This document shows positions 1 to 60,073 of a stretch of DNA of 64,000 nucleotides, in pieces. Both the position numbers and the translations under genes were made by a program. The notes under the pieces are model-generated. The model searched no databases and had not been told where the DNA came from. It saw nothing but the letters and a program-made list of their open reading frames with translations. The stretch's first letter is position 1. Each line of letters opens with the position of its first letter. Source of the DNA: Cordylochernes scorpioides (lineage: Eukaryota; Arthropoda; Arachnida; Pseudoscorpiones; Chernetidae); assembly GCA_030710605.1 (NCBI GenBank), contig CP092872.1, forward strand, positions 97,722,874-97,786,873, read 5' to 3'.

Positions 1-332
1 CCGGGGACGGCCACGGCGGAGTCCACGGCTCCTACGGCTACGTGGACGCCCACGGCATCAAGCGGCACGTGGACTACGTGGCGGACCACCACGGCTTCCG
101 TGCCCACGTCAAGACCAACGAGCCGGGGACCGCTGACCAGGATCCCGCTGCTGTTCATCTAGAACACCACGGTCATCATGGTCATCATCACGGCCACCAT
201 CATCATGATCATCATCACGGTCATCACCACGGTCATCATCATGGTCACCACCATGGTTATCATCACGGCTACCACCACCACGGTCATCATCATGGACATC
301 ACCATGGTTACCATCATGGCCATCATTTCTAA
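1..332 (+). CDS. Histidine-rich RR-type cuticular protein, copy 1 (3' part of exon 3)
   Basis: This is the 3' part of the last exon of a secreted structural cuticle protein; the 5' part lies outside the window. The visible frame starts within SGDGHGG, runs through the Rebers-Riddiford core (GSYGYVDAHG, then HVDYVADHHGFRAHV) and the extension KTNEPGTADQDPAA, and ends in a His-Gly tail terminating GHHF and a TAA stop at 330-332. The tail of this copy is unusual in carrying three Gly-Tyr units. A polyadenylation signal AATAAA follows at 441. The coding part is very GC-rich until the tail, in sharp contrast to the AT-rich flank. The frame and domain match five complete copies downstream, so the assignment is secure although the gene is cut by the window edge. 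Confidence 0.9.
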   Translation, partial: GDGHGGVHGSYGYVDAHGIKRHVDYVADHHGFRAHVKTNEPGTADQDPAAVHLEHHGHHGHHHGHHHHDHHHGHHHGHHHGHHHGYHHGYHHHGHHHGHHHGYHHGHHF

Positions 333-1229
333 ACATCAATTATTATTCCCAGCGCTCGTGTGGGTGAAAAAGGAATCCTGTTGATTGATTCATAAACCAT
401 TGCCCTCATATGGCTACAAACAATGTAATATCTTGTATGGAATAAAAAATAAACTTTGAATATTCCTCTATATCATGCTCGTTTCATATCTCATTTGTCA
501 TCTAAATGTTTTCAGTTTCTCGGGGATCGTGTGAAAGAAGGTTGTTTAGTTTTGTTCTCTCACATAACAATAATTGAAATTACATCAAGGGAGGATTTAG
601 TATTCAAACACCTGTCTTAATAACTTTCATAACATCCTTAAATTATTTAGGTTAACACACAAAAAAGGATATTTTAAAACAAAGTTGAATTCTTCACCTG
701 ATTTTGTAGAATAAACAAAATACTCTTTAGGTTTGTTAACTTGAGCACGCAGGAATTTCCCAATGTGGATTTGAATTTGGGTCTTGAATGTCATCAGTGT
801 GAACCGCCATGTCACAAACCCCATGTTTTATAATGTAAATTCACAATGTACTGGCAAAGTCTTTGTCTATCAGTTAACATTTGCACATGAAGAGAAACAG
901 CCATTATTGCCAAACAATCCCTTAGAGCTAATAGTCTATAGAGAACATATTTACACGATCCACAATTAACTCCAGTTTCACCACCGTGGAATAATCAGTT
1001 TGTATGAATGCTGCAGATTTCAAATATTTATTTCACATATTAATTTTAAATTTTGTTTTTAATATCAATGATATACATATATATATCTTAAAAAAGGCAT
1101 TTATTACAATGAAAATATCTTTATTTAACAATATTTCAGTTTGCTGCACACGACATCAAGCTACAACAAATTTATTTACATATTTTCACACCATTACCAA
1201 ATTTGGAGTTTCATCAACTGAATATTTGA
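333..1229. other. 3' UTR of copy 1, then AT-rich intergenic DNA
   Basis: AATAAA signals at about 441-452 mark the likely end of the copy 1 transcript. Beyond this I see only AT-rich sequence with short chance frames and no recognisable gene. Confidence 0.5.
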
Positions 1230-1500
1230 ATCTAATATGTGCCTTGGAATTCGGTGGACGAGTAGTCAAATCTATTTGTTCTCAACTGCTACGATCAAGG
1301 ATCGAATCCCGCATTGGGCGCTTTTTTCCAATTAAACCAAAGCTACAAATGCCTTCATATTCTTGCATAGGCAATTCTACCTGAGAATACAAGTAGCCGA
1401 AAACAGCTCTATCACACCTGTAAGTGCAAAATTGAACTGTTTTTCAAATTTCAAATTGAAAACTAATATAATCGCTTCCTTTCATAAATATTGTTGCATA
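1230..1500 (+). repeat. tRNA-derived SINE, degenerate copy
   Basis: A tRNA-like head includes a box-B-type stretch GGATCGAATCCCGC near 1298, followed by a body ending in a conserved segment (ACCTGTAAGTGCAAAATTGA). The same order recurs near 13600-13935, 43862-44150 and 45095-45190. This indicates a pol III-type SINE family. Confidence 0.5.
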
Positions 1501-1689
1501 GGAAAAATAAATGTGAATTTAATTAATTATTATTCGGTACCTAATGTGGAAATACTTGAATAGAAAAGAAATTAATACAAATTTGTTTTGATCAAAGAGT
1601 ATGATGTTTTATAAAAATGTCGAATAGGCTTACACACAAGAGTTAAGCTGAAATTCTGACAATAGGAAAAACAACAATAGGGGATAAAT

Positions 1690-2900: not shown

Positions 2901-2989
2901 GCATCAATAATAAATGATATATTTTAATATGAAAAAATGAGAGAAAACATAATTTTTATAATTTAAATAAATTTTTCGGGAAGCCACTA

Positions 2990-3659: not shown

Positions 3660-5403
3660 TATATGATATAAAAAGCCAACAATGAAGAGTGAATGTAATA
3701 TAAAAAGCCAACAATGAAGAATGAATGTAAGATAAAAAGCCAACAATGAAGAGTGAATGTAATATAAAAAGCCAACAATGAAGAGTGAATGTAAGATAAA
3801 AAGCCAACAATGAATAGTGAATCTATATATATAAAAATGAATGTATGTGTGTCTGTTTGTTTGTCCTTTATGCCTGACCAAACCACTCATTGGATCGCCA
3901 TGAAACTTTGGGAAGTTATTTAGTATAGTACTGGGAAGGTTTCTAGCAAATAAATTTTTGAAATAACTTTTCGCCTAGAAATAATCAAGATAAATATTCT
4001 AATTTATCTGTTATAATTCAACAATCTGCTCTAAATATTATCATGATGATACGATGATTTTGTAATGTAGAAAATTAGGAAAGACAAAATTCAGGATGAC
4101 ACGGCAATTTATTTGAGACAAGAATAATGATACAATTCAAAGGCAAGATACTATTCCTTTAACTTCCAATTACCGAGGGAACCAATTAATATTGATTTTA
4201 TTCAACTTATCGAGTATTTTTCAAGGGACCGGGAAAAAATGTTCACTTTATCGAGAGATTCGTTAAACAAACCTTTACTCGGGTAAAACCCGGGCGAAGC
4301 CGGGTACATCCATACAAGAATAATGATACAATTCCAAGGCAAGATACTATTCCTTTAACTTCCAATTACCGAGGGAACCAATTAATATTGATTTTATTCA
4401 ACTTATCGAGTATTTTTCAAGGGACCGGGAAAAAAATGTTCACTTTATCGAGAGATTCGTTAGACAAACTTTTACTCGGGTAAAACCCGGGCGAAGCCGG
4501 GTACGTCCGCTAGTGTAATATAAAAAGCCAACAATGAAGAATGAATGTAAGATAAAAAGCCAACAATGAAGAGTAAATATAATATAAAAAGCCAACAATG
4601 AAAAATGAATGTAAGATAAAAAGCCAACAATGAAAAGTAAATATAATATAAAAAGCCAACAATGAAGAGTGAATGTAAGATAAAAAGCCAACAATGAAGA
4701 GTAAATGTAATATAAAAAGCCAACAGAGTGAATGTAAGATAAAAAGCCAACAATGAAGAGTGAATGTAATATAAAAAGCCAACAATGAAGAATGAATGTA
4801 AGATAAAAAGCCAACAATGAAGAGTGAATGTAATATAAAAAGCCAACAATGAAGAATGAATGTAAGATAAAAAGCCAACAATGAAGAGTGAATGTAAGAT
4901 AAAAAGCCAACAATGAAGAGTAAATGTAATATAAATAGCCAACAATGAAGAATGAATGTAAGATAAAAAGCCAACAAAGAAGAGTAAATATAATATAAAA
5001 AGCCAACAATGAAGAGTGAATGTAAGATAAAAAGCAAACAATGAAGAGTAAATGTAAGATAAAAAGCCAACAATGAAGAGTGAATGTAATATAAAAAGCC
5101 AACAATGAAGAATGAATGTAAGATAAAAAGCCAACAATGAAGAATGAATGTAAGATAAAAAGCCAACAATGAAGAGTGAATGTAATATAAAAAGCCAACA
5201 ATGAAGAATGAATGTAAGATAAAAACCAACAATGAAAAGTGAATGTAAGATAAAAAGCCAACAATGAAGAGTAAATGTAATATAAAAAGCCAACAATGAA
5301 GAATGAATGTAAGATAAAAAGCCAACAATGAAGAGTAAATATAATATAAAAAGCCAACAATGAAGAGTGAATGTAAGATAAAAAGCCAACAATGAAGAGT
5401 AAA
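3660..5403 (+). repeat. 32-bp minisatellite array (interrupted)
   Basis: About 5 units (3660-3821) and about 28 units (4514-5403) of a 32-bp repeat share the core AAAAAGCCAACAATGAAGA. Two unit variants, AATATAAAAAG and AAGATAAAAAG, alternate over much of the array, giving a 64-bp higher-order period. The complement strand is stop-free in all three frames, producing long spurious frames with a 32-residue peptide period. The array is split by the Helitron at 3822-4513. Confidence 0.85.
3822..4513 (+). mobile_element. Non-autonomous Helitron inserted in the minisatellite
   Basis: The element begins TCTATATATATAAAAATGAA and ends GGGTACGTCCGCTAG. It sits exactly between A (3821) and T (4514), the classical Helitron AT target. 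Joining the flanks restores a normal minisatellite unit. The 3' terminal portion is present twice (hairpins ending near 4304 and 4503), so the element carries a tandemly duplicated terminus. It has no coding capacity. Confidence 0.8.
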
Positions 5404-6004
5404 TCTATATATATAAAATTGAATGTCTGTCTGTCTGTCTGTTTGTTTGTTTGTTTGTACTCTATAGATTCAAAACCCATACATCCAATCGCCGTGAAAA
5501 TTTGGGATATTATTAGGTATATCACCGGGAAGGTTTTTGAAAAATAATTTCATGAATATCTTGAATAACCTTAGAGTTACTTGCAGATTTGTAGATTTAA
5601 CTCGCAAGCAGCGCCCCCATTGTGACGATGATAACAAGTTTTCTTATCACTAAGTTTGTTATCTTAAATATTATTTATCAAAAGTAAGATTATCTCAGGA
5701 TGACACGGCAATTTATTTGCGACAAGAATTATGATACAATTCCAAGGCGGAGATACTATTCCTTTAACTTCCAATTACCGAGGGAACCAATTAATATTGA
5801 TTTTATTCAACTTATCGAGTATTTCTCAAGGGACCGGGAAAAATGTTCACTTGATAAAACTATGATTTTCTAATGTAGAAAATTAAGAAAGACAAAATTC
5901 AGGATGACAAGACACACAGGGACCGGGAAAAAAAATGTTCACTTTATTCGTTAGACAAACATTCACTCGGGTAAAACCCGGGCGAAGTCGGGCGGGTCCG
6001 CTAG
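5404..6004 (+). mobile_element. Non-autonomous Helitron, family with GCGCCCCCATTGTGACGATG
   Basis: It starts TCTATATATATAAAATTGAA after an A in the last minisatellite unit and ends at CTAG 6001-6004 after a GC-rich hairpin. The central part includes GCAAGCAGCGCCCCCATTGT, also present at about 3510 and in the reverse composite near 31260 and 32690. Confidence 0.7.
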
Positions 6005-6867: not shown

Positions 6868-9010
6868 TTATTTATTTATTTATTTATCAAATCAGACGCA
6901 ATATCCCTACAAGGGATGCTTGCGTCAATAACAACACTAAATTCAGATACTATATTACATTAAAAAAAAATAAATAATTACAAGATTTGAAAAGATAAGA
7001 AAGAGGACATTAAAATCATTCTTGATTTTACATCACAACCAACAAAATAAACAAACCAAAAAATATATATATACAAATAGGTAATAATTAAGGTTTTTTC
7101 AACCAAGAGAGAAAATCAAAGATATATTTACAGAATTTTCTAAATTTAAAATACGAGTCCTTACTATTTACAAACATAAAAAGATCCTTGTATTCGATGT
7201 TTTCCCGGTTTCTGTAGTTCTGGAAGATTGGGCACTCAAGAAGCAGATGACTGGAATCCTGCTTTCTCTTTCCACATAAACATCCTGGATCGTCTATAGC
7301 TCCTATTCGAAACAGAAAATCTCCGAAATTTCCATGACCAGTAACGAATTGCACATTGTAAGAGTCAGGGCGGAAATATTTTGGTTATTTAGGTCTAATT
7401 AGCGTCTTATACAAAATTAACCTTTTATTAGAGTTTATACCCCATATTTTGCCGCTGAGGGAAAAAAGCAGATTTTTCATGCGATGCGCCTTATGCAAAA
7501 TCTCATTGATGTGCGGGGTGAAATTTATTTTTGTTTTGAACCTATGATTAGATAATTTCATTCCCAAAATTTTGATTTCATTTGAAGGCTTTATGACGGT
7601 TTTTTGAAATTCCAGCTGGAACCTATGGAAATTGTGAAAGTGAATCAAGTTTGTTTTTTCTGGATTTATTTTAAACTTGTTTGAGCGACACCATTGAGTG
7701 ACATAGTTTAGGGTGTTCACTAACTCAGTTTTTAGACCCTCTAAATTATAATGCCAACATACAATAGAGATGTCGTCCGCGTAGCAAATAATTTCAGCGT
7801 TTGTAGATTTAAAATTCATTAAAATATCGTTTAGCAAGATGTTCCATAATAACGGTGACAGTGGACTACCCTGAGGACATCCCTTAGTAAGGTTTTTGGA
7901 GACCGTTTTGCCACCGTATGACAGACAAACTGTCCTTTTATTATTCAAATAGGATTGGATGATTTGAATCAGAGAGCTGGGAACGTTGTCTAAATCCATT
8001 CTTTTTATTATAGCTGGCCACCATGCATTATCAAAAGCCCCTGATAAGTCCACTGCGATCAACGCCGTCAGTTCTCTTTGCTTGTGTTCCAGAATAGTTT
8101 CAGTCAGCTCTTTCATAGCAGTAATTGTTGATTTATGCCTGGAGAAGCCATGTTGTCTATGACTCATCAAATTGTTTTCGTCATAAAAGGTAGTAAGTTT
8201 ATTTTTAATTACGTTTTCGAAAATTTTTGAAATGTTAGATAGCAAGGAAATTGGTCTGTAGCTTTTACTAACATCATAACTAGTTTTATCTCCTTTAGGA
8301 ATGATTTTCACAAAAGAGTTTTTCCAATAATCTGGGAAATATCCCAAACTTATACATTTTTCAAATATTTGATGGAGGATTATGGAAATCCTAGGGTAGG
8401 CGTATTTTATCATATTATTGCTAATATTATCTGATCCAGGTGCTTTCTTATATTTTTCAATAATACAATAATTGATTCGATATCTTTTAGGCTTATGATC
8501 ACTTTGTTTCTATTATTGTAGATTGGCGAGTAATATCTAGTTGCTTTGTGAAGTTCCTCCTCGGAAGAAATATCATCGTCCGGGAAAAGATCGTTCAATA
8601 AACTTTCCATTTTTGAAGTCCTAGCAAAATCCGGTGCGTTGTCTATCAATGGAATCCCTGTTGTGCTAAATGATGCTTTTAAGGTTTTGAAAGTTTTATA
8701 AGTGTTCCCAAATGGATTAGTTGATTCGTTTTCTTCGAGAAAGAATCTCCAGCTTTTAAGTTTTGCCTTGTTAATGGCTTTATTATATTTATTACGAGCA
8801 GCTTTAAAGAATTTTTCATTAATTATTTTGCCTCGCGCGCGCGCGCGATAGAATAAATTTCTTATATAATTAAAATCATTTTTCATTTTTTCAAGTTTAT
8901 TCGTCCACCACTTGAATTTAACTTTGTTTTTGTTTATGGTTGATTTTAACTTAAGGGATGCGTAAGCTGCTTCACTGATAATATCTGTGAGTTCTAAAAC
9001 AGCTCTTGTA
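6868..9010 (-). mobile_element. R1-like non-LTR retrotransposon, 5'-truncated
   Basis: A LINE lies on the minus strand with its 3' end at about 6868, marked by a TAAATAAATAAATAAATAA tail. Its 5' end is truncated near 9010, where TATATTGTATATATTG repeats begin. Reverse transcriptase and a C-terminal Cys/His motif are recognisable (see the pseudogene entry). No target duplication was identified. Confidence 0.75.
7088..9003 (-). pseudogene. R1-like reverse transcriptase, broken
   Basis: The frame opens near 9003 with a linker containing KFKWWTNKLEKMKN and runs to about 8440. There a one-base frame change within the KAPGSDN region moves reading to the next frame. That frame (8413-7385) carries RT motifs SYRPISLLS, LIAVDLSGAFDNAWWPAI, GCPQGSPLSPLLW and the catalytic YADD. 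The GAFDNAWWP block and the later TGHGNFGDFLFR plus CLCGKRKQ...HLLLECPIF zinc-knuckle are typical of the R1 clade. The frame stops near 7385 after LIRPK; sequence between this and the C-terminal motif (7354-7088) looks deleted. The copy is dead: 5'-truncated, with a frameshift and a deletion. Confidence 0.8.
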
Positions 9011-9265
9011 TATTGTATATATTGTATATATTCAAATATTTATACTGTAGGTTTACAAGGTATATACTGCATGTATACAATTTTATATTGTTTGTATACC
9101 GTTAAATAAAGCAGTTCCTTCTCAACTCGCTAAAAACCAAAGTAACAGAGAGTATAGCTTCATTATACCTTTTGAATTTCAAGGATTTTGCCAGCTAAAC
9201 ATTCAGATATGCTGACTTACATTCCTTCTATAAATGTTGACATTGAATTGTCACAAGGGGAGTTG

Positions 9266-9430
9266 ATGAGGGCGTCCAATCGACTTCTGAGAGTGGAATT
9301 AACCTTAATATTTCTCAGTGGAATTCGCGGGACAATCAGAGAATGGTACCAAGTCATTTAGCATCCAGTTCTAGGATTGTATATAGCAGGGGACGGCAGT
9401 CAGTTTACAGTAGCATTCGCACCTACAACT
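9266..9430 (+). promoter_or_regulatory. Promoter of cuticle gene copy 2
   Basis: A block conserved in five copies (CCAATCGACTTCTGAGAGTG, then GGACAATCAG and GGTACCAAGTCATT) precedes a TATATAG box at 9380. A CAGTAGCATTC block about 29 nt further on probably includes the start site. The start codon follows at 9431, so the 5' UTR is very short. Confidence 0.75.
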
Positions 9431-11119
9431 ATGTTCTCTAAGGTAAGTCACTTCAGCCTGGATGCAACTATGGGATACTGTACCAACCGTTGGGATTATC
9501 GCCAATAGAATGATATTTCCTAGAGTCTTTGAAAAGACATACTTAGTAAGCTCATTAATTAAATCGATAAATATATGGATTATTGTTAACATTTATTATA
9601 CACTCGCAAATGGCACCGAGTGTAGGAAATATTTTCAATTAGAAATATTATAATAAACTGGTGCCTCCTTCAACAGGTCCGAGTAGTCGAAAAGAATATT
9701 CCTCACAATTTTGAAAATACATAAGTTATCATTTATATGACGCTTTGTCAAATTACTTTATTAGAAAACAAACATAAAAACCTAGCTAAGTGTAAAATTT
9801 GTTTGTAATCTATAGCCATTTAATATAGCCACATATATTAACTTGAATCATTTGAATTATTTTTGCCTTTCTATCAATTGATTCTAATTTTCAAAACTCC
9901 TAGAGTCATAAAATGCTATAAAGCAAACTAGATAAGTTTATAGTGATATAAATGTGTAAGAATATTACATATAGAAAGTTTCTCTACATAAAATTTGAAT
10001 ATTAATAAACTTTAATAGATACACAAATATAATATTTTATTGAATGCATATAGTGTTCAAAATAAGCGATAATATCTTGAAAATCAAAATAAATCAGGAA
10101 ATAGAACGATATTGAAAAGTTGAGAGAAGCAACTTAATATATCACTAGGGTAATTAATCCCATTACCTTTAAGAAAATCACTAGATTCAGTGCTGATATT
10201 GAATTCATAAATTATATTTTATCTCCAATGCACCCTCTAGAATATTGTCAATGAAGTTGGGAAATTGTAAAAGATTTATTGCTGTTTCATCACAGAATGT
10301 GTAAGTGAAAAGGTATATTTTTCTAACAGAGAAGTTTATCTTTCTAATTTTCCCCGAGTGCGGTATGTGTCCAGCCAAGTGAAAAATTTCAACATGTAAA
10401 ATAAATTTAAACTAATTTTACAAGAATTTACACCGCTATAAACACGCCATTTGATGTGTTCTGCAGGTGATCGTCCTCTGCTTCCTTGCAGCTGTGGCCC
10501 TCGCCCTGCCCTTCCATCATCATCACGATGATCACCATCATCATCATGTAAGTTACACTTGGAATAACAGAGTAAAAGGACCTGTTTCAACGTTATTCTA
10601 AATTAATTAATGGCTACATTATATAATTTTCCTCTAGCTTTTCATTTGACAATAAGCTTTGGTGACTTTTTATTTTTTTAAAATAAAAAGTCACCAAAGC
10701 TTTTTTTAAGAGCAACTGAAGATTTTCTATTGCTGTGTCAGCACGCCCACCCGTACCACTTCGGCTACCACTCCCCCGACCACGGCGGACACCACTACCG
10801 CAAGGAGTCCGGGGACGGCCACGGCGGAGTCCACGGCTCCTACGGCTACGTTGACGCTCACGGCATCAAGCGGCACGTGGACTACGTGGCGGACCACCAC
10901 GGCTTCCGTGCCCACGTCAAGACCAACGAGCCGGGGACCGCTGACCAGGATCCCGCTGCTGTTCACCTAGAACACCACGGTCATCATGGTCATCATCACG
11001 GCCACCACCATCATGACCATCACCACGGTCATCATCATGGTCATCATCACGGCCACCACGATCATCATCACGGTCATCACCATGGTCATCATCACGGTCA
11101 CCATGGCCATCATTTCTAA
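9431..11119 (+). CDS. Histidine-rich RR-type cuticular protein, copy 2
   Basis: Three exons are supported by splice sites and phase-0 junctions: 9431-9442 (MFSK), 10467-10547 and 10742-11119, giving 156 residues. Residues 1-17 (MFSKVIVLCFLAAVALA) form a signal peptide, so the product is secreted. The patch HHHHDDHHHHH follows at 21-31. A Rebers-Riddiford chitin-binding domain lies at about 50-95 with aromatic residues at GSYGYVD, DYVAD and HGFRAHV. From about 108 the tail is almost only His and Gly with two Asp-flanked breaks, ending GHHF. The likely role is a chitin-bound, metal-coordinating cuticle matrix protein; metal binding is inferred from composition. Intron 1 is 1024 nt, with a conserved element near 9660; intron 2 is 194 nt and has a perfect hairpin. 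AATAAA lies at 11230. Confidence 0.92.
10654..10702. repeat. Perfect hairpin in intron 2 of copy 2
   Basis: Two 23-nt arms (10654-10676 and 10680-10702) are exact reverse complements separated by TTT. The hairpin ends 39 nt before the exon 3 acceptor. It was not seen in the equivalent introns of the other copies. Confidence 0.85.
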
Positions 11120-16545: not shown

Positions 16546-16712
16546 TGAGAGTTAAGGAATGCAACCAATCGACCTCTGAGAGTGGAATTAACCCTAATAT
16601 TCTTCAGTGGAATGTAGGGACAATCAGGGCCATGGTACCAAATCATTTATCCACCAGTCCTAGTGTTGTATATAACTGGAGTCAGTTTACAGTAGCATTC
16701 ATACCTACAGCC
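16546..16712 (+). promoter_or_regulatory. Promoter of cuticle gene copy 3
   Basis: The conserved block (AACCAATCGACCTCTGAGAG, GGACAATCAGGGCCATGG, GTACCAAATCATT) leads to TATATAA at 16669 and CAGTAGCATTC, with the start codon at 16713. Confidence 0.8.
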
Positions 16713-18036
16713 ATGTTCTCTAAGGTAAGTAGCAACCGACGGATGAGACTTAAACACTTGAATAATTCAAGGTATAGAGATTTTTATCTTACAAATAATT
16801 ATTATAAAATTATTTCAAAATGAATTTTCACAAATATTTGGTAAATATTATAGAAATTCCTTTAAATGCCAATAAAACACATAAAAAATCAAAATAATTT
16901 TAGTAAAAATCGTTAAGTGTCTGTGGTGCTTTCTTTGACAGGTCCGTATGTTCGGAGCGCTAGCTAGGAGAAGTAAACCTTGTGAGGCTATGCAAATTAA
17001 AATAATTTAGTGAGTAGTATAATACTGTTAAACTCATATATGTCTACGATTTATTTTACAATTCAAAATAAATTTGATACTTTTAAATTAAAAAATACAA
17101 GTACACATGAACTATATTTTTCTTTAAAAATTGAAATAATGATTAAACAAACCTACTCGACTGTTTGATATATAGAGAGAATGGCATTCTTGTAATATTG
17201 GATTGTATAAAACTATTTTTTTGCCAATATTTCGGTTGGCTAAACGCCAACCTTTGTCAAAGTATTACATTTCGAATAACCAAACTCAAGCGCTTCTTAG
17301 TTTGAAATGTAAGTTGTTAATGTGGAAGAGGTGATTTGCCATTAAATCGAACGTACTTTATAGTCAAACTCTAATTTTCTTTATTTCTTGTGTCGTACAG
17401 TTGGTAGTTCTCTTCTTCCTGGCAGCTGTGGCCCTCGCCTTGCCTTTCCACCACCATCATCACGATGATCACCATCATCATCATGTAAGTATAATAACAA
17501 AGAAATTAATTAAAGACATTGTAATATGAAAATAGGATTATTTATATGTCTCTCAAAATATTTTCAAGCTAACTACTGAATATATTCTATTGCTGTGTCA
17601 GCACGCCCACCCGTACCACTTCGGCTACCACTCCCCCGACCACGGCGGACACCACTACCGCAAGGAGTCCGGGGACGGCCACGGCGGAGTCCACGGCTCC
17701 TACGGCTACGTGGACGCCCACGGCATCAAGCGGCACGTGGACTACGTGGCGGACCACCACGGCTTTCGTGCCCACGTCAAGACCAACGAGCCGGGGACCG
17801 CTGACCAGGATCCCGCTGCTGTTCACCTAGAACACCACGGTCATCATGGTCATCATCACGGCCATCATCATGATCACCACCATGGTCATCATCATGGTCA
17901 TCACCATGGTCATCATCATGGTCATCACCACGGCCACCACGAGCATCATCATGGTCATCACCATGGTCATCACCACGGTCATCACCACGGCCACCACGAG
18001 CATCATCATGGTCATCATCACGGTCATCATTTTTAA
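16713..18036 (+). CDS. Histidine-rich RR-type cuticular protein, copy 3
   Basis: Exons 16713-16724 (MFSK), 17401-17484 and 17602-18036 join in phase 0 to give 176 residues, the longest of the complete copies. The signal peptide is MFSKLVVLFFLAAVALA. Exon 2 ends HHHHHDDHHHHH, one His more than in the other copies. Exon 3 holds the Rebers-Riddiford chitin-binding domain, the KTNEPGTADQDPAA extension and an expanded His-Gly tail in which two HHGHHEHHHGHH-type segments appear to be an internal duplication. The protein is predicted to be secreted and chitin-bound, with metal affinity inferred from His density. Intron 1 is 676 nt and includes a palindromic MITE half (17200-17290, GGCTAAACGCCAACC) and the conserved element at 16925. 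AATAAA lies at 18169. Confidence 0.92.
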
Positions 18037-22397: not shown

Positions 22398-22760
22398 TGT
22401 TGCACCAAGTTGAAGCTTTGCAGGGTCGTCGGCCTTGGTTTCTTCCTTCTTGGTGTTATATACGTTTCCCGAGCGGGTCTCCATATTAAAAGTAAATAAA
22501 TAAAATTAAATAAAAATAAATTACCTTTTAAAGTTATTGTGTTTATTTATTCTTGTCTTCCTCGTAGGTTGCGATCCGCAGTCTTCGTCTAGGTCCTCTC
22601 CCGCTCCAATCAGCATAAAAGATATATGTACAATAAATATTTAAAAATGAGTGAAACTATAAAAAGGAATGATGCTAATCTAAATATTCTGTTTTAAATA
22701 AATATTAAATATCATAGAATATTTTGAATAAATGTAAGGCGCATTAAAATTGATGTAACA
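22398..22760 (-). repeat. 3' LTR of gypsy-1
   Basis: On the minus strand it runs TGTTACATC...GGTGCAACA, 363 bp, TG...CA bounded. It matches the split right-hand LTR with scattered substitutions. It contains the pol stop (22744-22746) and a copy of the first 28 or so gag codons. Confidence 0.88.
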
Positions 22761-34635: not shown

Positions 34636-34802
34636 ATCAGAGTTGAGGAATGCAGACAATCGACCTCTGAGAGCAGAATTAACCCTAATATTCTTCAGTG
34701 GAATGTTAGGACAATCAGGGCCTTGGTACCAAATCATTTATCACCAGTCCTAGGATTGTATATAACTGGAGTCAGTTTACAGTAGCATTCACACCTTCAG
34801 CC
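34636..34802 (+). promoter_or_regulatory. Promoter of cuticle gene copy 4
   Basis: The conserved block (GACAATCGACCTCTGAGAGC, GGACAATCAGGGCC, GGTACCAAATCATT) precedes TATATAA at 34759 and CAGTAGCATTC, with the start codon at 34803. Confidence 0.8.
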
Positions 34803-35949
34803 ATGTTCTCTAAGGTAGGTAGCACTGACGGGCAATATGTGAATAATTCCAGGTGTATTGAGAGCACCTTATACAGAATAATTATTTTAAAATGTTAATT
34901 TCCACAAATACTTCGCCAGATATGAATGGGAAATAGAATTTTCTACACATACCCAATAAAGCGCATAGATAAAAAATATTTGCATTTTAAAAAATCGTTA
35001 AATATGTGTGACTACGATACCTTTCTCAAAAAGCCCTCGAGCCGAATATTTTAGATCAATTCATGGAATCTGTATTCAATTTTGAAAATGATTTATTGAG
35101 CTTTATTGTAAATATATTATTTATTTTTGCTAATGTCACTGAAAATATAGTTTCTCTCTCTCGTCAATGTACTCTCAAAGTTGGCTTAAAAGGTTTCTTC
35201 CATCTATCAAATTAATATATCTAAGATGCCTTGAGCGCGCGGTGTCTATTTCTCAGTGCGAATTCTTATGATAGAAAAGGTATTTCCTAATTAATTCGCC
35301 ATAATAAACTTTCCAGCGCACTCTAAACTTATCCATTCTGTATGTTCTGCAGGTAATCGTTCTCTTCTTCCTGGCAGCTGTGGCCCTCGCCCTGCCCTTC
35401 CATCATCATCACGATGATCACCATCATCATCATGTAAGTATTGCATGAGAGATTTATTACAGAATGCTAATGAAAAAATAAGTCTATTTATATATCAATA
35501 TTTTCAAAAGTGCAACTGAAGATTTTCTATTGCTGTGACAGCACGCCCACCCATACCACTTCGGCTACCACTCCCCCGACCACGGCGGACACCACTACCG
35601 CAAGGAGTCCGGGGACGGCCACGGCGGAGTCCACGGCTCCTACGGCTACGTGGACGCCCACGGCATCAAGCGGCACGTGGACTACGTGGCGGACCACCAC
35701 GGCTTCCGTGCCCACGTCAAGACCAACGAGCCGGGGACCGCTGACCAGGATCCCGCTGCTGTTCACCTAGAACACCACAGTCATCATGGTCATCATCACG
35801 GCCACCACCATCACGATCATCATTACGATCATCATCATGGTCATCATCATGGTCATCATCATGGTCATCATCATGGTCATCATCATGGTCACCACCATGG
35901 TCACCATCATGGTCACCACCATGGTCATCATCACGGTCATCATTTCTAA
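34803..35949 (+). CDS. Histidine-rich RR-type cuticular protein, copy 4
   Basis: Exons 34803-34814 (MFSK), 35353-35433 and 35542-35949 give 166 residues. The signal peptide MFSKVIVLFFLAAVALA is followed by the HHHHDDHHHHH patch, the Rebers-Riddiford domain and the KTNEPGTADQDPAA extension. The tail has a Ser replacing the first Gly (EHHSHHG), one HHYDHH unit and then a long uninterrupted run of HHHG units, the most regular tail of the family. Introns are 538 and 108 nt, the shortest pair; intron 1 has a diverged version of the conserved element at about 35016. AATAAA lies at 36062. The product is predicted to be secreted and chitin-binding. Confidence 0.92.
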
Positions 35950-41315: not shown

Positions 41316-41502
41316 TGACATTAACCTGTCCTATGGGAGTTGTTTACTAAGGTGACCAATCGACCCTTGAGAATGGAATTAACCCTAATATTCCCCAGCG
41401 GGACAATCAGGGCCATGGTACCAAGTCATTCAACACCTAGTGTAGTATATAAACGTAGAGTAGATTCAGTCAGACACAGTAGCATTCTCCCCCACTTCAA
41501 CC
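41316..41502 (+). promoter_or_regulatory. Promoter of cuticle gene copy 5
   Basis: The block starts TTGACATTAACCTGTCCTAT, continues with the family sequence (GACCAATCGACCCTTGAGAA, CCCCAGCGGGACAATCAGGG, GGTACCAAGTCATT), has TATATAAA at 41446 and an ACAGTAGCATTC block 32 nt later. It is nearly identical to the copy 6 promoter before that was split. Confidence 0.8.
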
Positions 41503-43595
41503 ATGTTCCACCAGGTGAGTCAGCTTCTACTCCTCAGCCTGAATATCTCTAGAGGAGATTGCACTGATTCAGCTTTGGAATAATTCCATGTCAAAAACTT
41601 TTGTGGAATTATTAAAATAAATTATTCACCCATAGAAATATTTTAAAGTACTAGTGGTAGAAATACATATATATCTATATATATAAAAATGAATGTATGT
41701 GTGTCTGTTTGTTTGTCCTTTATGCCTGACCAAACCACTCATTGGATCGCCATGAAACTTTGGGAAGTTATTTAGTATAGTACTGGGAAGGTTTCTAGCA
41801 AATAAAATTTTTGAAATAACTTTTCGCCTAGAAATAATCAAGATAAATATTCTAATTTATCTGTTATAATTCAACAATCTGCTCTAAATATTATCATGAT
41901 GATACGATGATTTTGTAATGTAGAAAATTAGGAAAGACAAAATTCAGGATGACACGGCAATTTATTTGAGACAAGAATAATGATACAATTCAAAGGCAAG
42001 ATACTATTCCTTTAACTTCCAATTACCGAGGGAACCAATTAATATTGATTTTATTCAACTTATCGAGTATTTTTCAAGGGACCGGGGAAAAATGTTCACT
42101 TTATCGAGAGATTCGTTAAACAAACCTTTACTCGGGTAAAACCCGGGCGAAGCCGGGTACATCCATACAAGAATAATGATACAATTCCAAGGCAAGATAC
42201 TATTCCTTTAACTTCCAATTACCGAGGGAACCAATTAATATTGATTTTATTCAACTTATCGAGTATTTTTCAAGGGACCGGGGAAAAATGTTCACTTTAT
42301 CGAGAGATTCGTTAAACAAACCTTTACTCGGGTAAAACCCGGGCGAAGCCGGGAGCATCCATACAAGAATAATGATACAATTCCAAGGCAAGATACTATT
42401 TCTTTAACTTCCAATTACCGAGGGAACCAATTAATATTGATTTTATTCAACTTATCGAGTATTTTTCAAGGGACCGGGAAAAAAATGTTCACTTTATCGA
42501 GAGATTCGTTAGACAAACTTTTACTCGGGTAAAACCTGGGCCAAGCCGTGTACGTCCGCTAGTATATATATAAATAAATATATATCAATTAACAAAACAC
42601 ATAAATAGTGTGTGTGTGAAAAAATAATTTCATACAAAATTGTTTATATACAATGGTACCTTCTTCGACAGGTTCGGATGTTCCAAACAGTCAGTTACGA
42701 GATGGGTTCCTGGTAGATTGTTGGTAGATCATGCACTAATTTACTTTTAAAATGAAAAAAAAAATGTTTTTGATTAATATTCCTTATTATTGACAATTCA
42801 TATAAAAATTAGTGAGAGACTCTTTGTTTCTTTACACTTGGCGCGAAACCTTTTACACCATAAATGGATTTCTCAAAACGCCCTGATGGAATTTCTGCCA
42901 GTACAGTGGAAATCCATGGTCGAAGAAGGATTTCAATCAATTCGCAATAACTTTAGTTTTTCTAAATATATTTGTTCAATGTGTTTTTCAGATGATCGTC
43001 CTCTTCCTCCTGGCGACTGTAGCCATTGCGCTGCCATTCCATCATCATCACGATGATCACCATCATCATCATGTAAGAATAACTTCAAAGACTATGAAAC
43101 TATGACTTTTAGCGCTTAACTTTTATGGTATTCATAATATTTTCATGTTGATATATAACTTGAAATGATATTCATAATCGAGCTGTAACTGATTAACCTT
43201 TTGAATGAATAGGACCAACAATGTTTATTTAATAACTACTAAACCTTCTATTGCTGATTCAGCACGCCCACCCGTACCACTTCGGCTACCACTCCCCCGA
43301 CCACGGCGGACACCACTACCGCAAGGAGTCCGGGGACGGCCACGGCGGAGTCCACGGCTCCTACGGCTACGTGGACGCCCACGGCATCAAGCGGCACGTG
43401 GACTACGTGGCGGACCACCACGGCTTCCGTGCCCACGTCAAGACCAACGAGCCGGGGACCACTGACCAGGACCCCGCTGCTGTCCACATAGAACACCACG
43501 GTCATCATGGTCATCATCACGGCCACCACCATCATGATCATCATCATGGTCATCATCATGGTCACCACGACCATCATCATGGTCATCATTTCTAA
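41503..43595 (+). CDS. Histidine-rich RR-type cuticular protein, copy 5
   Basis: Exons 41503-41514 (MFHQ), 42992-43072 and 43263-43595 give 141 residues, the shortest complete copy. The signal peptide is MFHQMIVLFLLATVAIA. The Rebers-Riddiford core is unchanged, but the extension reads KTNEPGTTDQDPAAVHIEHH (Ala to Thr and Leu to Ile), making this the most diverged exon 3. Its tail is short: 24 of the last 35 residues are His. Intron 1 is 1477 nt because it holds an 889-bp Helitron; the conserved element lies at 42655. Intron 2 is 190 nt with a GTAAGA donor. AATAAA lies at 43699. The MFHQ start and promoter group it with copy 6 rather than copies 2-4. Confidence 0.92.
41674..42562 (+). mobile_element. 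Helitron in intron 1 of copy 5, triple 3' terminus
   Basis: It starts TCTATATATATAAAAATGAA after A and ends CTAG at 42559-42562 before T. The 3' terminal ~195 bp occurs three times in tandem, with hairpins near 42150, 42345 and 42540; only the last is followed by CTAG. It lies in the same orientation as the host gene. Confidence 0.85.
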
Positions 43596-51617: not shown

Positions 51618-52464
51618 TTTTAACTTGTTGTTTTAAAAGCGAACAGCTCATTAATGAAATAGTTGACCCGGTATCAATAAAAGATGAAACTGGAATATTA
51701 TTAAGTAAAACTTCAACATTAACAAATCTATAAGGAAAATTGGTATTTGCCATGCAAAGTGAATCAGCTATGGTTTGTTTAACATCTGTGGTGATATTAG
51801 TTGCTTGGTGTTTAAGCTTGTCTTTATAATTAGGATCATAATCTTTGCAATCACTTATCCAATGTTTAAAATACAATCCTTTTTTCTTACAAATAGGACA
51901 CCAATATGGGCAATTTTTTGAGATTGTAGGTGTAGTTATATTAAAAACCTTGGTTTTACTTCTCTGTTGTTGCCTTATTTGATTATTGTTTTGTTCAATC
52001 TCCATGGCAATCTGCATCCAATGTGATGGATCTTTAGGCTGGGCTGTTACGAGATAATTTTTCCAATCTAATGGTAATCCATCCGTTAACATTTTTAGCT
52101 TCTCGACATTATTGAGGCTTGTTTGATTTAATAATCTAATTTTATCTCTAAAATAATCTTCCACGGTTTCTCCTTTTTTAAGTCTTCTTTTTGATGCTGC
52201 AACTATAGGGCTTTCAACTTTATATCCAATGCGCTGAATTAATTTGAGTTTAACAGTATCCCATTTTTTAATGGATGCGTTGCTCAATATTTCATCAGCA
52301 AACCATTCTAAAGCATCTTTTGATAAATAATAAATTAGATTATTGATTCTATCGACTTCATCTAGTTTACCAGTTTCCAATTCATATAGTTTAAGCCATG
52401 ATTCAGGCCGAATTGAACCTTTATCACCGCTAATTTTCTCTAATTTGTTTACATTTACTGCCAT
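51601..52464 (-). CDS. gypsy-2 Gag with start of protease
   Basis: A 287-codon frame starts MAVNVNKLEKISGDKGSIRP at 52464. It contains a capsid-like region (PESWLKLYELETGKL, KKWDTVKLKLIQRIGY), a Cys/His knuckle of the form CPICKKKGLYFKHWISDC, and the protease active site SFIDTGSTISLMS. It ends at 51601, where the protease sequence continues in the overlapping pol frame. The shift needed is +1 (equivalent to -2), not a classical -1 site, so an indel inside the protease is a fair alternative. Confidence 0.8.
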   Translation of the reverse strand: MAVNVNKLEKISGDKGSIRPESWLKLYELETGKLDEVDRINNLIYYLSKDALEWFADEILSNASIKKWDTVKLKLIQRIGYKVESPIVAASKRRLKKGETVEDYFRDKIRLLNQTSLNNVEKLKMLTDGLPLDWKNYLVTAQPKDPSHWMQIAMEIEQNNNQIRQQQRSKTKVFNITTPTISKNCPYWCPICKKKGLYFKHWISDCKDYDPNYKDKLKHQATNITTDVKQTIADSLCMANTNFPYRFVNVEVLLNNIPVSSFIDTGSTISLMSCSLLKQQVKIECKR

Positions 52465-52540
52465 TGTACTTACTTTTTCTTTCGTCGAAGCCTTTTTTGA
52501 TTTATATTTTAATCCTTTCGTAGCTGCGCCAAATATTTTA

Positions 52541-52764
52541 TGTAACGTTTTATTTTTGCTTTAACTTTTTAAAGAAATGTTTTATTTTAAATCTTTATCT
52601 AATTTGTTTGTTTGTTTTAAATAAAGAGGCAAATTTACCATGTTGTTGTTCTTTTGTTTATTCATTGTTCTTTTTTTCCAATGATGATAAGAGTTATTGA
52701 TCACACATTAAAAATCAATGAAAAACCAATTACAAAATTAATTACAAAATTCAGAAACGTGTCA
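52541..52764 (-). repeat. 5' LTR of gypsy-2
   Basis: 224 bp matching 48607-48830 with one visible difference. Confidence 0.9.
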
Positions 52765-55649: not shown

Positions 55650-55667
55650 TATTCCTCCCTTGTTTAG

Positions 55668-57722
55668 TTAGTATCTAATCATGTCCTTAAATCTAGAAGG
55701 AACATGTATTTGTCTTCCACTTCTAGTGATGACAGTCTTGTTTTCATTCTCATTAGGTGATTCATTTGGGTATAAACAGTCCATATCAGATATAGCAATC
55801 TGCTCTTCTGGTACAATATCTTCTAAGGTTGCTTCTTGTTCTGGTAGATACCTTGAAGTACTAGGAAGTTCCATTCTAATTTCTGGAGTCTTAATCAAAG
55901 TGGTATTCAAATCAATTCCTTTGTTAAAATCTTGTAAGACATTGGCATGTCTTAAATGCTTTGCATTCCTAATGATAAAGCTACCTGTCTCTGTATTGAC
56001 TAACTTGAATGAATTTGGAGATATAGTCTCTAGAATGATAAATCTTTGGTTGTCATAATTTGGTGTCAACTTGCTTTTCATTTCAGTGTTTGCAACAAAA
56101 ACAATATTACCTTTCTTGAAGTCATGAGGCAAGGCCTTATTCTTGCTATCAGCATATTTCTTCATTCTTTCTTTATAGGCTTGATTATGCTCCATCACTT
56201 CTTTCAGATCAACACATAGTCTGATTTCTTCAGTACCCTTTTTTGGAACTGCCACAATGTTTGAGATCCATTCAGAAGCTTCATGGACTTCCTCAAAAAT
56301 GCCATCTTCTATCATTTTGTCTAGCTCTTGATTGATGGCTTCTACCATTTTATATGGAAAATGTCTGCATCTCTGAGCTACAGGAGTAACATTTTCTTTT
56401 AGAGTTATTTTTTGACTATAACCCTTCACATTTCCTTGACCTTGAAAAAGGTTCATGTTTTCTTGTATCAAATTATATATATCCTTCGGAATAACTTCCT
56501 GTTGAATATTCCTTATTTTTGTTCCACGCTTTATAATTTCTAATTCGAAACTTGCTTTCTTTCCTAAAAGAGGTTCTGCTTTACCTTCAATCACAAAAAT
56601 CTGTTCCTTTATAGACCTTTCACCCCATGAAACATCTGCAAAGAAATATCCACAACATGGAAGAGGTGAAGTTTGTCCATAGGCATAAAATTTCCTTTCT
56701 GTACCATTCAAAGTTGGCATTTGAGATTTAGGAAAAATATTTTTCAAATTTTCAAGTCCTATGAATGTTGTATCACTACCTGTATCAATAGTCATTTTTA
56801 TTTCCTTTCCATCTATATAGATACTTTCTTTGTTATCAGAGCCTAAAAAGAAAGTGTATTCATCTGAGTCTTCATTATTTTCAGAAATATTTTGAATATT
56901 TCTTTTCTTTCCTTCAATATTTTTATATTTATTTTTATTTCTACAAACTCTATTAAGATGACCCATCTTGTTACAAAATGTGCATTTCATATTTCTAGCT
57001 CCACATTTATATGGAGGATGTGTAGTTAAGCCACATCTATAGCATTCTTCCAAATTAGGTGCACTTACCTTGGAGGTGCTTCCTTTTTGATGGTACACAT
57101 TATGAGCTTTTGATCCTTTAACAGTTGATTCATTAGCTGCTTGGAAATTATTTTTATAGTTTACTCTATTTATTGAGGTCATATCTTCATTTGTCAATAC
57201 TCTAAATTCTTCTTTGGCTGTTTCAAACATTCTTGATATCTCAATTGTTCTTTGAAGATTCAAATTATCTTGTTGCAACAACTTTTCTTTTAATTGCCTA
57301 TTATAGCATTTTTCTATTATCTGATCTCTGATCATGTCTTCTTCTAAATTTCCAAATTCACAGGATTTGACTAATTCTCTTAGGGCAATGACATATGAAT
57401 CAATATTTTCATCTGTATTTTGTTTTCTTTGCCTAAATTTAAATCGTTCTGATACAATATTTTTTTGTGGTGTGAAATATTTAGTTAAAGCTTCTTTTGC
57501 TTTTTCATACGTATCTTTTTCTTCTGGCAAATTAAAGAAAATTCTTTGGACTTGTGGTCCAAGGCAATGCAAAAGTGTTGCCCTTTTAACGTCATCTTTC
57601 TTTGTTGAAACACCGCTTGCTAATTCATAAATTAAATATGAATTCATCCAATGTTTGTACTCGGAATACAAATCTGTAGCATTAAGGTTCAACGGTAATG
57701 GAGACGTCAAATTATTTGCCAT
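55668..57722 (-). CDS. gypsy-3 Gag-protease fused to integrase C-terminus
   Basis: A single uninterrupted 684-codon frame starts MANNLTSPLPLNLNATDLYS. Residues 1-190 are capsid-like (WMNSYLIYELASG, FRQRKQNTDENIDSYVIALR). About 225-265 hold two Cys/His knuckles (CYRCGLTTHPPYKC and CTFCNKMGHLNRVC). About 305-400 is an aspartic protease (MTIDTGSDTTFIG). About 430-510 is the beginning of RT, ending EIRLCVDL. At that point the frame jumps directly to sequence typical of an integrase C-terminal tail (KEVMEHNQAYKERMKKYADS, then NYDNQRFIILETISPNSFKL). The palm with the catalytic aspartates, RNase H and the integrase core are absent, yet the frame is kept. Likely a trans-mobilised structural polyprotein. 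Confidence 0.88.
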   Translation of the reverse strand: MANNLTSPLPLNLNATDLYSEYKHWMNSYLIYELASGVSTKKDDVKRATLLHCLGPQVQRIFFNLPEEKDTYEKAKEALTKYFTPQKNIVSERFKFRQRKQNTDENIDSYVIALRELVKSCEFGNLEEDMIRDQIIEKCYNRQLKEKLLQQDNLNLQRTIEISRMFETAKEEFRVLTNEDMTSINRVNYKNNFQAANESTVKGSKAHNVYHQKGSTSKVSAPNLEECYRCGLTTHPPYKCGARNMKCTFCNKMGHLNRVCRNKNKYKNIEGKKRNIQNISENNEDSDEYTFFLGSDNKESIYIDGKEIKMTIDTGSDTTFIGLENLKNIFPKSQMPTLNGTERKFYAYGQTSPLPCCGYFFADVSWGERSIKEQIFVIEGKAEPLLGKKASFELEIIKRGTKIRNIQQEVIPKDIYNLIQENMNLFQGQGNVKGYSQKITLKENVTPVAQRCRHFPYKMVEAINQELDKMIEDGIFEEVHEASEWISNIVAVPKKGTEEIRLCVDLKEVMEHNQAYKERMKKYADSKNKALPHDFKKGNIVFVANTEMKSKLTPNYDNQRFIILETISPNSFKLVNTETGSFIIRNAKHLRHANVLQDFNKGIDLNTTLIKTPEIRMELPSTSRYLPEQEATLEDIVPEEQIAISDMDCLYPNESPNENENKTVITRSGRQIHVPSRFKDMIRY

Positions 57723-57780
57723 CTTCTGTTACGCTTATTTAATTATTATTTTCTTTTTTTTTAATCCTCGTCGCCAAATA

Positions 57781-57965
57781 TGTTGTGTTGTTTATCTTTT
57801 ATAAACTACAACTTATATATTTATTATTTAATTATAATTATTTATTTATCACACACATTTAAATCTAGTAAAGATTAATTCTCTATTTACAAAACACAGT
57901 CAGTCTATTGTTCTTAATTCCTCTTCTTAAATTCACATCACTTATATATTTCACACTATTCTACA
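57781..57965 (-). repeat. 5' LTR of gypsy-3
   Basis: 185 bp, one difference from the 3' LTR; followed at its outer side by the AGGGC target duplication. Confidence 0.92.
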
Positions 57966-58057
57966 AGGGCCATGGTACCAAGTCATTCAACACCTAGTGT
58001 AGTATATAAACGTAGAGTAGATTCAGTCAGTCAGTAGCATTCCCCTCCACTTCAACC

Positions 58058-60073
58058 ATGTTCCCCCAGGTGAGTCAGCTCCTGTACCTAACTACATCAC
58101 ATAGCACTGATTCAACACTTAGATAATTTCAGGTACATAGCCTCAAAATACAATTGATAGAAATTACCTGCAGGTTTCTGACCTCTGTGCTGTCTGGAGT
58201 TTAGGAACTCCATTTATGCTTCCTTCCTGCCCTGAATCTATATAAGACCGATGGTCTTAATAAAGCTGTATGTGTGAAATTACTAACGCCTATAAATACT
58301 TTAGAAGTGTACGATAAGTAGATATATTAAAGACTATATCAATCACCCAAAATATAAAGAGTAGAAAAATATTCTCAATAAAATATCTAAGGTGCTGCGG
58401 GACCTTCCTCGACAGGTCCAGATAGCTCAAGCGGTCATATAGGAGGAAAGAGAATCTTAGACGGTTATTAAAAGTATTTTAAGAGGATAAAAAATACGTA
58501 TATACACTCAGTATACTTATGTCGCCGGTCCTCTGTTTTTTAAGGAGACAGAGGCAATTTTGTTCACACTTGATTATCTCGTGTGTCTTCAATAAATGTC
58601 ACATATATGTATAAAGAATCTTTAAGAGTTATTGTCTGAATTCCGATGTACATGTTAAAAGGTTTAACTTCCTCAAGTTACACGCTCGGTCTTTTTTCCT
58701 TTGTTTTAGCAGTGATTGAACATTATAAAGTAAATTTATTGAATTCTAACCGCAGTGAAGGAACATTTTAATGTCGTAATCACGAGCATTCAAGATTGAA
58801 TAATTAAATTAGTTGTGCAGATTCATAAGTCTAGTTTTATCGACAGCACACACCAAGTAACGTATACGTAACCTAGACTGAGTGTGTATTTCAATAACAA
58901 GCTCACTGTCGGGGCTAGATTTTTATTTAAAAATTCTCTAATAAGTTTGACTTGAATATTAACATATAAGATTGTTATTTATAAGACACAACATTTATTT
59001 TTAATTGCATCTTTGAGCGTTATGTTGAAGGAGAATGTAGATTCTATTGTATAACATGTTTCAAACCAATAACCTTTTAGTAACGAAATGAAATCCAAAT
59101 AGAATACTTTAAATAAGAGAAATTAATATCTTACTAGAGAGGCCTCGTTTTTACCTATTATATTTTGACAATTTTTTTTATTGGATTCTATACTTATATT
59201 TTCAAATTCTAAATAAGTTATTCAGAAATTTATAAATATTCTTTATATTATTTTGTCAATTTTTTTCTCAGTTTAAAATGTGAGAATGACTTTCTAATGT
59301 TTCCACATATTTACTGCAGAACATTTACCTTTATAAATGAATTAGAACTTCTTATATATAAGATGCTTTGATATCAATGCGGAAAGTATTCCCCTATGAA
59401 GGGAGAGGGATTTTGAACAATTCTCCAGTACTTATTTTTGTAATTCTCTATTCCGTGTCTTCTGCAGGTAATCGTCCTATTCTTCCTGGCAGCTGTGGCC
59501 ATCGCCCTGCCCTTCCATCATCATCACGATGATCACCATCATCATCATGTAAGTTTCACATCGACATTAGTTATAACGCTTAACCCAAATTCCATTTAGA
59601 TTAAGAATTATATTTGCCTATATATAGCGCAAATATAGAAATAATAAACTTTTAGCTGATTAAATAATTTGAAATTCCTATACGAATTACTGAGGCTTCC
59701 ATTGCTGTGTCAGCACGCCCACCCGTACCACTTCGGCTACCACTCCCCAGACCACGGCGGACACCACTACCGCAAGGAGTCCGGGGACGGCCACGGCGGA
59801 GTCCACGGCTCCTACGGCTACGTGGACGCCCACGGCATCAAGCGGCACGTGGACTACGTGGCGGACCACCACGGCTTCCGTGCCCACGTCAAGACCAACG
59901 AGCCGGGGACCGCTGACCAGGATCCCGCTGATGTTCACCTAGAACACCACGGTCATCATGGTCATCATCACGGCCACCACCATCACGATCATCATCATCA
60001 CGGCCATCACCACGGTCATCATCACGGTCACCACGATCATCATCATGGTCATCACCATGGTCATCATTTCTAA
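58058..60073 (+). CDS. Histidine-rich RR-type cuticular protein, copy 6
   Basis: Exons 58058-58069 (MFPQ), 59468-59548 and 59714-60073 give 150 residues. The signal peptide is MFPQVIVLFFLAAVAIA, followed by the HHHHDDHHHHH patch, the Rebers-Riddiford domain and a tail with HHHHDHHHHGHHHG and one HHDHHHG break, ending GHHF. The extension has Asp for Ala (DPADVHLEHH). Intron 1 is 1398 nt with a MITE (58501-58690) and the conserved element at 58399; intron 2 is 165 nt. AATAAA lies at 60194. Coding and splice sites are intact, but the promoter is split by gypsy-3, so expression may differ from the other copies. Confidence 0.92.
58501..58690 (-). mobile_element. MITE in intron 1 of copy 6
   Basis: Diverged family member: TATACACTCAGTATACTTAT start, TCTCGTGTGTCTTCAATAAA interior (reverse orientation), end near GTTTAACTTCCTCAAGTTAC. 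Confidence 0.6.

Follow-up and report, generated by a model that had tools for sequence, protein, structure and literature searches.

The window, i.e., the whole stretch of 64,000 nucleotides analysed here, harbours six cuticle genes of the RR type, all of which lie on the forward strand (Table 1). Each of the six copies matches the Chitin_bind_4 profile of Pfam (cut-off, 25 bits), five of them with 62.4–63.3 bits, and copy 1 (L016), which is truncated by the window edge only, with 43.3 bits. A three-exon structure with GT/AG splice sites was located in all five copies not truncated by the edge. A TATA box and an initiator of the TCAGT type precede exon 1, which comprises four codons. Exon 2 codes for a signal peptide and a His/Asp patch (FHHHHDDHHHHH; copy 3 has one additional His), exon 3 for the RR domain followed by a His/Gly tail. 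The exon 1/exon 2 junction splits the signal sequence in each of the five copies whose exon 1 lies within the window, as determined by pattern and by eye; exon 1 of copy 6 is the weakest match among the five. Exon 2 of copy 1 lies just outside the window and carries a longer His/Asp patch. The sequence-only reading had described secreted, RR-type proteins with His-rich tails, encoded in tandem by genes of one shared architecture, and this description holds.

A genome search yielded at least 20 near-identical genes of the window type within 0.31 Mb, accompanied by two sister types nearby, one with 15 copies and HHGY-type tails, the other with three copies and His/Asp tails. The count of six is correct for the window, but is ruled out as the size of the whole array. 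The span of 1–60073 initially assigned to the locus does contain the six genes, but also transposon-like and satellite DNA unrelated to them.

Table 1. Features of the six cuticle genes in the window; each exon 3 row ends with the open reading frame of that copy.
Copy	Feature	Positions	Strand
1	Exon 3, edge-truncated (frame from base 3): last part of RR domain plus His/Gly tail	1..332	+
2	TATA box (9380), TCAGT initiator (9400), exon 1 coding MFSK (9431–9442)	9380..9442	+
2	Exon 2: core of the signal peptide, His/Asp patch	10467..10547	+
2	Exon 3: RR (Chitin_bind_4) domain and His/Gly tail, including stop	10742..11119	+
3	TATA box and exon 1 (ATG 16713)	16669..16724	+
3	Exon 2 (LVVLFFLAAVALALPFHHHHHDDHHHHH)	17401..17484	+
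3	Exon 3; tail longest among 20 copies	17602..18036	+
4	TATA box and exon 1 (ATG 34803)	34759..34814	+
4	Exon 2	35353..35433	+
4	Exon 3	35542..35949	+
5	TATA box and exon 1 (ATG 41503, MFHQ)	41446..41514	+
5	Exon 2	42992..43072	+
5	Exon 3; tail shortest among window copies	43263..43595	+
6	TATA box and exon 1 (ATG 58058, MFPQ)	58003..58069	+
6	Exon 2	59468..59548	+
6	Exon 3	59714..60073	+

Composition of the histidine tail

Histidine makes up 39–44% of the mature protein in the four window copies that were joined, and 34–44% of exon 3 across 20 genome copies. The tails of these copies, about 30–65 residues in length, consist of roughly 70% His (67–73%). Pooled, their 856 residues comprise 632 His, 173 Gly, 37 Asp, 8 Tyr, 3 Leu and 3 Glu, and include neither Lys nor Cys. 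The charge of such a His-rich, Lys-free tail is expected to change around pH 6–7. The window tails are built of 12-bp repeats, and the His codons of the 20 copies are mixed (410 CAT, 222 CAC). The silent sites of the tail are AT-rich and have drifted, and the amino acids are nearly constant: tail His is retained while silent sites drift. A sequence search of the PDB returned no matches. AlphaFold models of five near-identical exon 3 proteins (mean pLDDT 51, too low a confidence to place His residues) show three strands for the RR core, with a tail devoid of structure.

Evolution of core and tail within one exon

Across the 190 pairs formed by 20 copies, nucleotide identity in the core of the main exon averages 97–99% per 60-base block. 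The mean core dS amounts to 0.07–0.10 in every class of flank divergence, from 8–15% up to unalignable; flanks are unalignable in 123 of the 190 pairs, where mean dS is about 0.07, and the single pair with 5% flank divergence shows a core dS of 0.167. An ungapped comparison had suggested that only exons are conserved and the remainder is random, a view discarded once gapped alignment found alignable flanks in 29 (intron 2) and 63 (downstream) of the 190 pairs. In Mantel tests on the 20 copies, flank similarity is associated with tail similarity (r=0.34, P=0.011), whereas the cores show no such association (r=-0.26, P=0.97), although few core differences exist per pair and the lost correlation may partly reflect weak signal. 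The decoupling is weaker in the 15-copy sister type (flank versus core, r=0.20, P=0.057; flank versus tail, r=0.20, P=0.043).

Since synonymous divergence in the core does not track the surrounding DNA, these data suggest that the RR core is under concerted evolution by gene conversion; the case is made mainly by the lost correlation between core and flanks, rather than by mapped conversion tracts. Selection on codons of the whole message is disfavoured, because GC3 switches within the same exon from 0.85 in the core to 0.32 in the tail. Identity at fourfold sites amounts to 0.97 among copies of the type, to 0.79 and 0.65 compared to the sister types and to an expected 0.44 by chance. On the basis of the low tail GC3 and these type-specific silent states, codon bias alone was rejected as an explanation for the frozen core. 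High core GC3 is also found elsewhere: in 24 other CPR loci (a set that leaves out L054, L055 and L063 due to a pattern mismatch) the values range from 0.47 to 0.95, and the loci with high core GC3 include L001, which appears isolated.

The similarity of the cores could instead stem from duplications in a very recent burst or from site-specific synonymous constraint, an explanation that we regard as improbable. Core variation is indeed star-like, with singletons at 24 of 31 variable sites, and all four combinations occur in only two of 15 informative site pairs. Yet, a burst or constraint fits poorly with flanks that are mostly unalignable at so low a dS, with synonymous states specific to the type and with tail synonymous sites that drifted within the same exon. 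Moreover, the pair with the closest flanks, picked post hoc, differs at 22 of 437 flank bases and nevertheless carries eight silent differences over approximately 53.5 synonymous core sites (Fisher P=0.011). With a small residual probability, the uniform core could also go back to a sweep of copies or to synonymous constraint at specific sites.

Gene conversion, possibly GC-biased, might furthermore maintain a uniform chitin-binding module at 20 or more loci, while each locus keeps, in the same exon, an almost pure His/Gly tail of its own length, such that tail lengths would be graded on one constant anchor. This extension is tentative. The tail variation itself resembles ordinary slippage and inheritance, because the window tails consist of short repeats and tail similarity over the 20 copies follows that of the flanks; the earlier suggestion that tail length tunes metal load is not supported.

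Proposed role in cross-linked bulk cuticle and alternative functions

We propose, with a probability of roughly one half, that the array encodes secreted CPR matrix proteins of bulk hard cuticle, which are anchored to chitin and cross-linked through their imidazoles by laccase-made quinones. The number of copies would allow a large pulse of a single matrix protein around moulting; indeed, bulk supply is suggested by the twenty near-identical copies. The RR core, homogenised by gene conversion, would anchor the protein to chitin, and the probably disordered tail would present a dense set of nucleophilic imidazoles. Quinones generated by laccase would then cross-link these imidazoles in the course of sclerotization and thereby harden the bulk cuticle. 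Metal coordination or pH-dependent condensation by these imidazoles may contribute as well, but the scheme requires neither. Two laccase-type Cu-oxidase_2 exons were found in the genome. A precedent is described for the silkworm cuticle protein BmorCPR152, which contains 45% His and is cross-linked in vitro by laccase2 with NADA/NBAD (PMC8062583).

A metal-based function is the foremost alternative, albeit an unlikely one: the His tails would act as ligands of zinc, copper or manganese, thereby hardening claws, chelicerae or pedipalp tips, with copy number and tail length setting the load. A mature protein with about 40% His, tails near 70% His with some Asp and the retained His composition are in agreement with this notion, and metal binding by the tails is possible. 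In arthropod tools, most of the zinc is considered to be nitrogen-bound, likely by imidazoles (PMC8410824), and in pseudoscorpions, Al has been reported at the tips of the pedipalps and Zn around the opening of the venom gland (PMC11342574). However, the zinc-rich surface layer is reported to hold little or no chitin, whereas the window proteins carry a chitin-binding-type domain, and arthropod data are said to fit only about one quarter of the binding sites on imidazole (PMC8410824). The twenty-fold dosage points to bulk cuticle, and the words “metal” and “zinc” are absent from the main text on the laccase2-cross-linked silkworm protein (PMC8062583).

The link to zinc-hardened spider fangs drawn in the sequence-only reading is not supported by anything in the sequence, and is weakened by the chitin-binding domain, the dosage and marker searches of the genome. 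Profile searches of the genome returned no match for Spidroin_N or hemocyanin, where an empty result is no proof of absence, and Antennapedia-like (Hox-like) homeodomains fall into two groups. These findings detract from the spider-fang reading, and the marker domains fit a pseudoscorpion better than a spider; the animal is probably a pseudoscorpion. A tick was rejected as the source, given that PF02098 had no match in the genome search and that the homeodomains form two groups.

Less probable still, and in our view doubtful, is a pH- or hydration-switchable matrix, where imidazole protonation would swell or plasticize the cuticle or drive coacervation before hardening, so that the tails would govern hydration and assembly, and not covalent or metal cross-links; in its favour are tails made of His, Gly and little Asp without Lys or Cys, the shift in tail charge that general chemistry predicts around pH 6–7 and the lack of tail secondary structure in the low-confidence AlphaFold model.

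Relation to known cuticle proteins and significance

The window genes share with the CPR family (Rebers and Riddiford consensus, PF00379) the RR domain, an intron-split signal peptide, a TATA box with a TCAGT-type initiator and tandem arrays as described for Anopheles, but their His content by far exceeds the RR-2 average of 11% (PMC2259329). With regard to composition, the window proteins resemble the His-rich proteins of lepidopteran scales, in particular BmorCPR152 (PMC8062583): their 39–44% His falls within the 6–45% range of cross-linkable cuticle proteins of this kind. In contrast to BmorCPR152, which was compared by composition, the window genes occur in an arachnid-like genome and in at least 20 near-identical copies. 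The Nereis jaw protein (27 mol% His, from zinc-containing jaws; PMC6477608, PMC8410824) is likewise a His- and Gly-rich structural protein, but comes from a worm jaw and is likened to the window proteins by composition only.

The CPR clusters of flies and mosquitoes that evolve in concert (PMC2793513, PMC2259329) are also homogenised around the R&R consensus and diverge more towards their coding ends, and conversion in them is associated with coding repeats (PMC2793513). The present array differs in its 20 copies, the mostly unalignable flanks and the sharp GC3 switch between core and tail within one exon. Large tandem clusters of similar CPR genes are found in another arachnid, the spider Pardosa pseudoannulata, with 243 CPRs and one run of 59; His-rich tails are not mentioned in the abstract and one section of that report (PMC10810088). 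No arachnid His-rich cuticle genes of this kind were among the literature matches listed (open-licence PMC). The array is an extreme, His-rich arachnid variant of the CPR clusters with concerted evolution known in insects.

Quinone tanning and metal coordination, both of them ways of hardening cuticle, meet in His-rich cuticle proteins, and the array provides a defined gene set for testing one against the other. If a constant anchor with a variable tail were to prove true, it would represent a new way of grading cuticle hardness or metal load. Finally, a single exon with two halves under different regimes offers an unusually clean comparison for the proposed homogenisation of R&R domains by gene conversion.

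Gene organization and extent of the array

The window spans 64 kb of contig C10 (CP092872.1) in a genome of 2.62 Gb and 24 contigs. It harbours six exon-3 reading frames, all on the plus strand, and in each the RR domain precedes a His/Gly tail. In the five copies uncut by the window edge, exon 1 is short, reads MFSK three times and MFHQ and MFPQ once each, and follows a TATA box with a TCAGT-type initiator; exon 2 supplies the remaining part of the signal peptide along with FHHHHDDHHHHH, a patch that has one extra His in copy 3; and the splice borders are GT/AG. The sequence-only reading, which described six secreted RR genes with His-rich tails, is borne out by Chitin_bind_4 matches above the Pfam cut-off in 6/6 copies and by signal peptide exons in the five uncut ones. 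The joined proteins of copies 2, 4, 5 and 6 comprise 141-166 residues and contain 39, 41, 42 and 44% His, counted from LPF onward, where the signal cut site was set by eye.

Six copies is correct for the window, but not as the full number. A genome-wide protein search, in which 150 of 337 candidates were scored and all copy counts are lower bounds, revealed at least 20 copies with the same core (the 80-codon RR part of exon 3) and tail type, 19 on the plus and one on the minus strand; 18 of them form a one-strand run within about 158 kb. A pattern search recovered exon 2 in 17/20 copies; it is also readable in L010 and L019 and was not located in L028. The exon-1/promoter block matches strongly in 15/20 loci; the other five were examined over no more than 1.5 kb of upstream sequence, and two of them, window copies 5 and 6, have the block farther away. 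L022, a copy outside the window, carries AAG for ATG in an otherwise conserved exon 1 and may be silent.

The neighbours include at least 15 genes with tails of HHGYQGEGG-like units (HHGY type) and at least three with HHDHHHG-like tails (His/Asp type). Farther out, the L032 tail is again His-rich, that of L033 is mixed, and those of L034, L037 and L038 are Gly-, Ala- or Pro-rich. Since an open frame above 20% His occurs in just one of 22 other CPR loci sampled (L001-L008, L054-L067; L062, 24%, followed by 11% and 10%), such tails are rare outside the cluster. The putative retroelement and mariner frames, called by eye from translations only, lie between the cuticle genes, and the 32-bp minisatellite yields long spurious open frames in the window.

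Coordinates of the array, repeats and single loci (window positions unless a contig is named)
Feature	Position	Remarks
His-tailed array	C10 97.627-97.937 Mb	
L022	C10:97651513	
32-bp minisatellite	3666-3836, 4514-5404, 31814-32539	up to 28 copies; opposite orientations at two main sites
196-bp tandem repeat	29157-29679, 41971-42557	opposite orientation; 96% matches each
Retroelement-like (non-LTR, LTR) and mariner-type transposase frames	7088-9039, 14534-15243, 21140-22143, 22744-29001, 48851-52560, 55668-57728	
L062	C3:133378500-133381300	
Inverted partner of L062	C3:133368908-133369204	
Cu-oxidase_2 (laccase-type) exons	C17:38395509, C17:38476180	equal scores; opposite orientation; about 81 kb apart
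Homeodomain groups	C1 48.4-52.1 Mb, C24 4.5-8.7 Mb	9 and 12 matches

Core and tail of exon 3

GC3 is 0.85 over the 80 core codons and drops to 0.32 in the tail of the same exon, close to the flank GC of 0.34. Across the 20 copies, His is encoded by 332 CAC and 7 CAT codons in the core, and by 410 CAT and 222 CAC codons in the tail. The 856 tail residues, leaving out the final Phe, are 632 His, 173 Gly, 37 Asp, 8 Tyr, 3 Leu and 3 Glu; Arg, Asn, Gln and Pro, each one base from His, are absent from them. The silent sites of the tail have drifted while His was retained; Asp, possibly a relic of an older unit, is left out of the selection argument. The copies extend 29-64 residues beyond the core, and the window tails are built of 12-bp repeats. 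With a slightly different core definition, GC3 is 0.93/0.35 (core/tail) here and 0.94/0.45 and 0.84/0.38 in the sister types, while most of 24 other CPR loci show a smaller step (core 0.47-0.95, tail 0.34-0.84).

The core is homogeneous, with 31 variable sites (24 singletons) among the 20 copies; a pair differs by a mean of 4.0 silent and 0.8 replacement changes. A clear gapped alignment was obtained for intron 2 in 29/190 pairs and downstream in 63/190, and the flank is unalignable in 123/190. Mean core dS does not track flank divergence across classes: 0.083 (8-15%), 0.103 (15-22%), 0.089 (22-28%), 0.085 (28-40%) and 0.073 (unalignable). L009/L025, the only pair whose flank divergence is 5%, has a dS of 0.167; it shows 8 silent differences at about 53.5 synonymous core sites and 22 differences in 437 flank bases (Fisher P=0.011; picked after the fact as the pair with the closest flanks), as would be expected if sequence from elsewhere had replaced one of the copies. 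Fourfold-site identity (44 codons) is 0.968 within the type, 0.791 to the His/Asp type and 0.650 to the HHGY type, with 0.44 expected from composition. Intron and downstream similarity are correlated across copies (Mantel r=0.38, P=0.004), as are flank and tail similarity (r=0.34, P=0.011), but flank and core similarity are not (r=-0.26, P=0.97; 20 copies).

We read these dS, fourfold-site and Mantel results as probable concerted evolution with the RR core at its centre. Three observations count against this reading: the contrast is weaker in the 15 HHGY-type genes (flank versus core r=0.20, P=0.057; flank versus tail r=0.20, P=0.043); all four combinations occur in only 2/15 informative core site pairs of the 20 copies; and the core has few differences per pair, so that the missing core/flank correlation partly reflects missing signal.

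Proposed cross-linking and possible metal binding

The sequence shows a secretion signal, membership of the chitin-binding family, the copy number and the retention of His. The product would be a bulk matrix protein with cross-linked imidazoles. The closest tested case is the silkworm protein BmorCPR152 (45% His), for which cross-linking into films by laccase2 with NADA or NBAD has been shown (PMC8062583).

The sequence-only reading had assigned the His tails to metal binding in hardened, spider-fang- or claw-like tools, which we consider unlikely. Tool zinc is considered to be mostly nitrogen-bound, likely on imidazole, with some of it necessarily elsewhere (PMC8410824). In pseudoscorpions, Zn has been reported around the opening of the venom gland and Al at the tips of the pedipalps (PMC11342574, citing another paper); yet the zinc-bearing layer is reported to be chitin-poor (PMC8410824), and the source animal is probably no spider. 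L062 and its inverted partner are a pair of CPR genes whose open frames run to 807 and 827 residues; the L062 frame (24% His) has HDDGHHKSGHGSSR-type repeats and Asp runs. Compared with the window genes, this locus is perhaps the stronger candidate to bind metal or mineral.

An Antennapedia homeodomain query gave 24 matches, three of them outside C1 and C24. Grouped by location rather than by gene identity, the two main sets would be as predicted by the arachnopulmonate genome duplication, which has been extended to pseudoscorpions (PMC8136511). The same search tool, whose empty answers do not prove absence, detected the two laccase-type (Cu-oxidase_2) exons on C17 and returned no match to Spidroin_N, the hemocyanin M or C domain, or tick lipocalin. 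Combined, these results suggest a pseudoscorpion, a reading that depends in part on missing hits.

Relation to known cuticle genes

Insects provide precedents for CPR tandem arrays (PMC2259329), for concerted evolution with the R&R consensus at its centre (PMC2793513, PMC2259329) and for cuticle proteins rich in His (PMC8062583); a spider has large CPR arrays (PMC10810088). Among open-licence papers, our searches turned up none that directly describes His-rich cuticle proteins from arachnids. As far as searched, the combination of such copy number and His content in an arachnid is new, together with the sharp division of one exon into two regimes.
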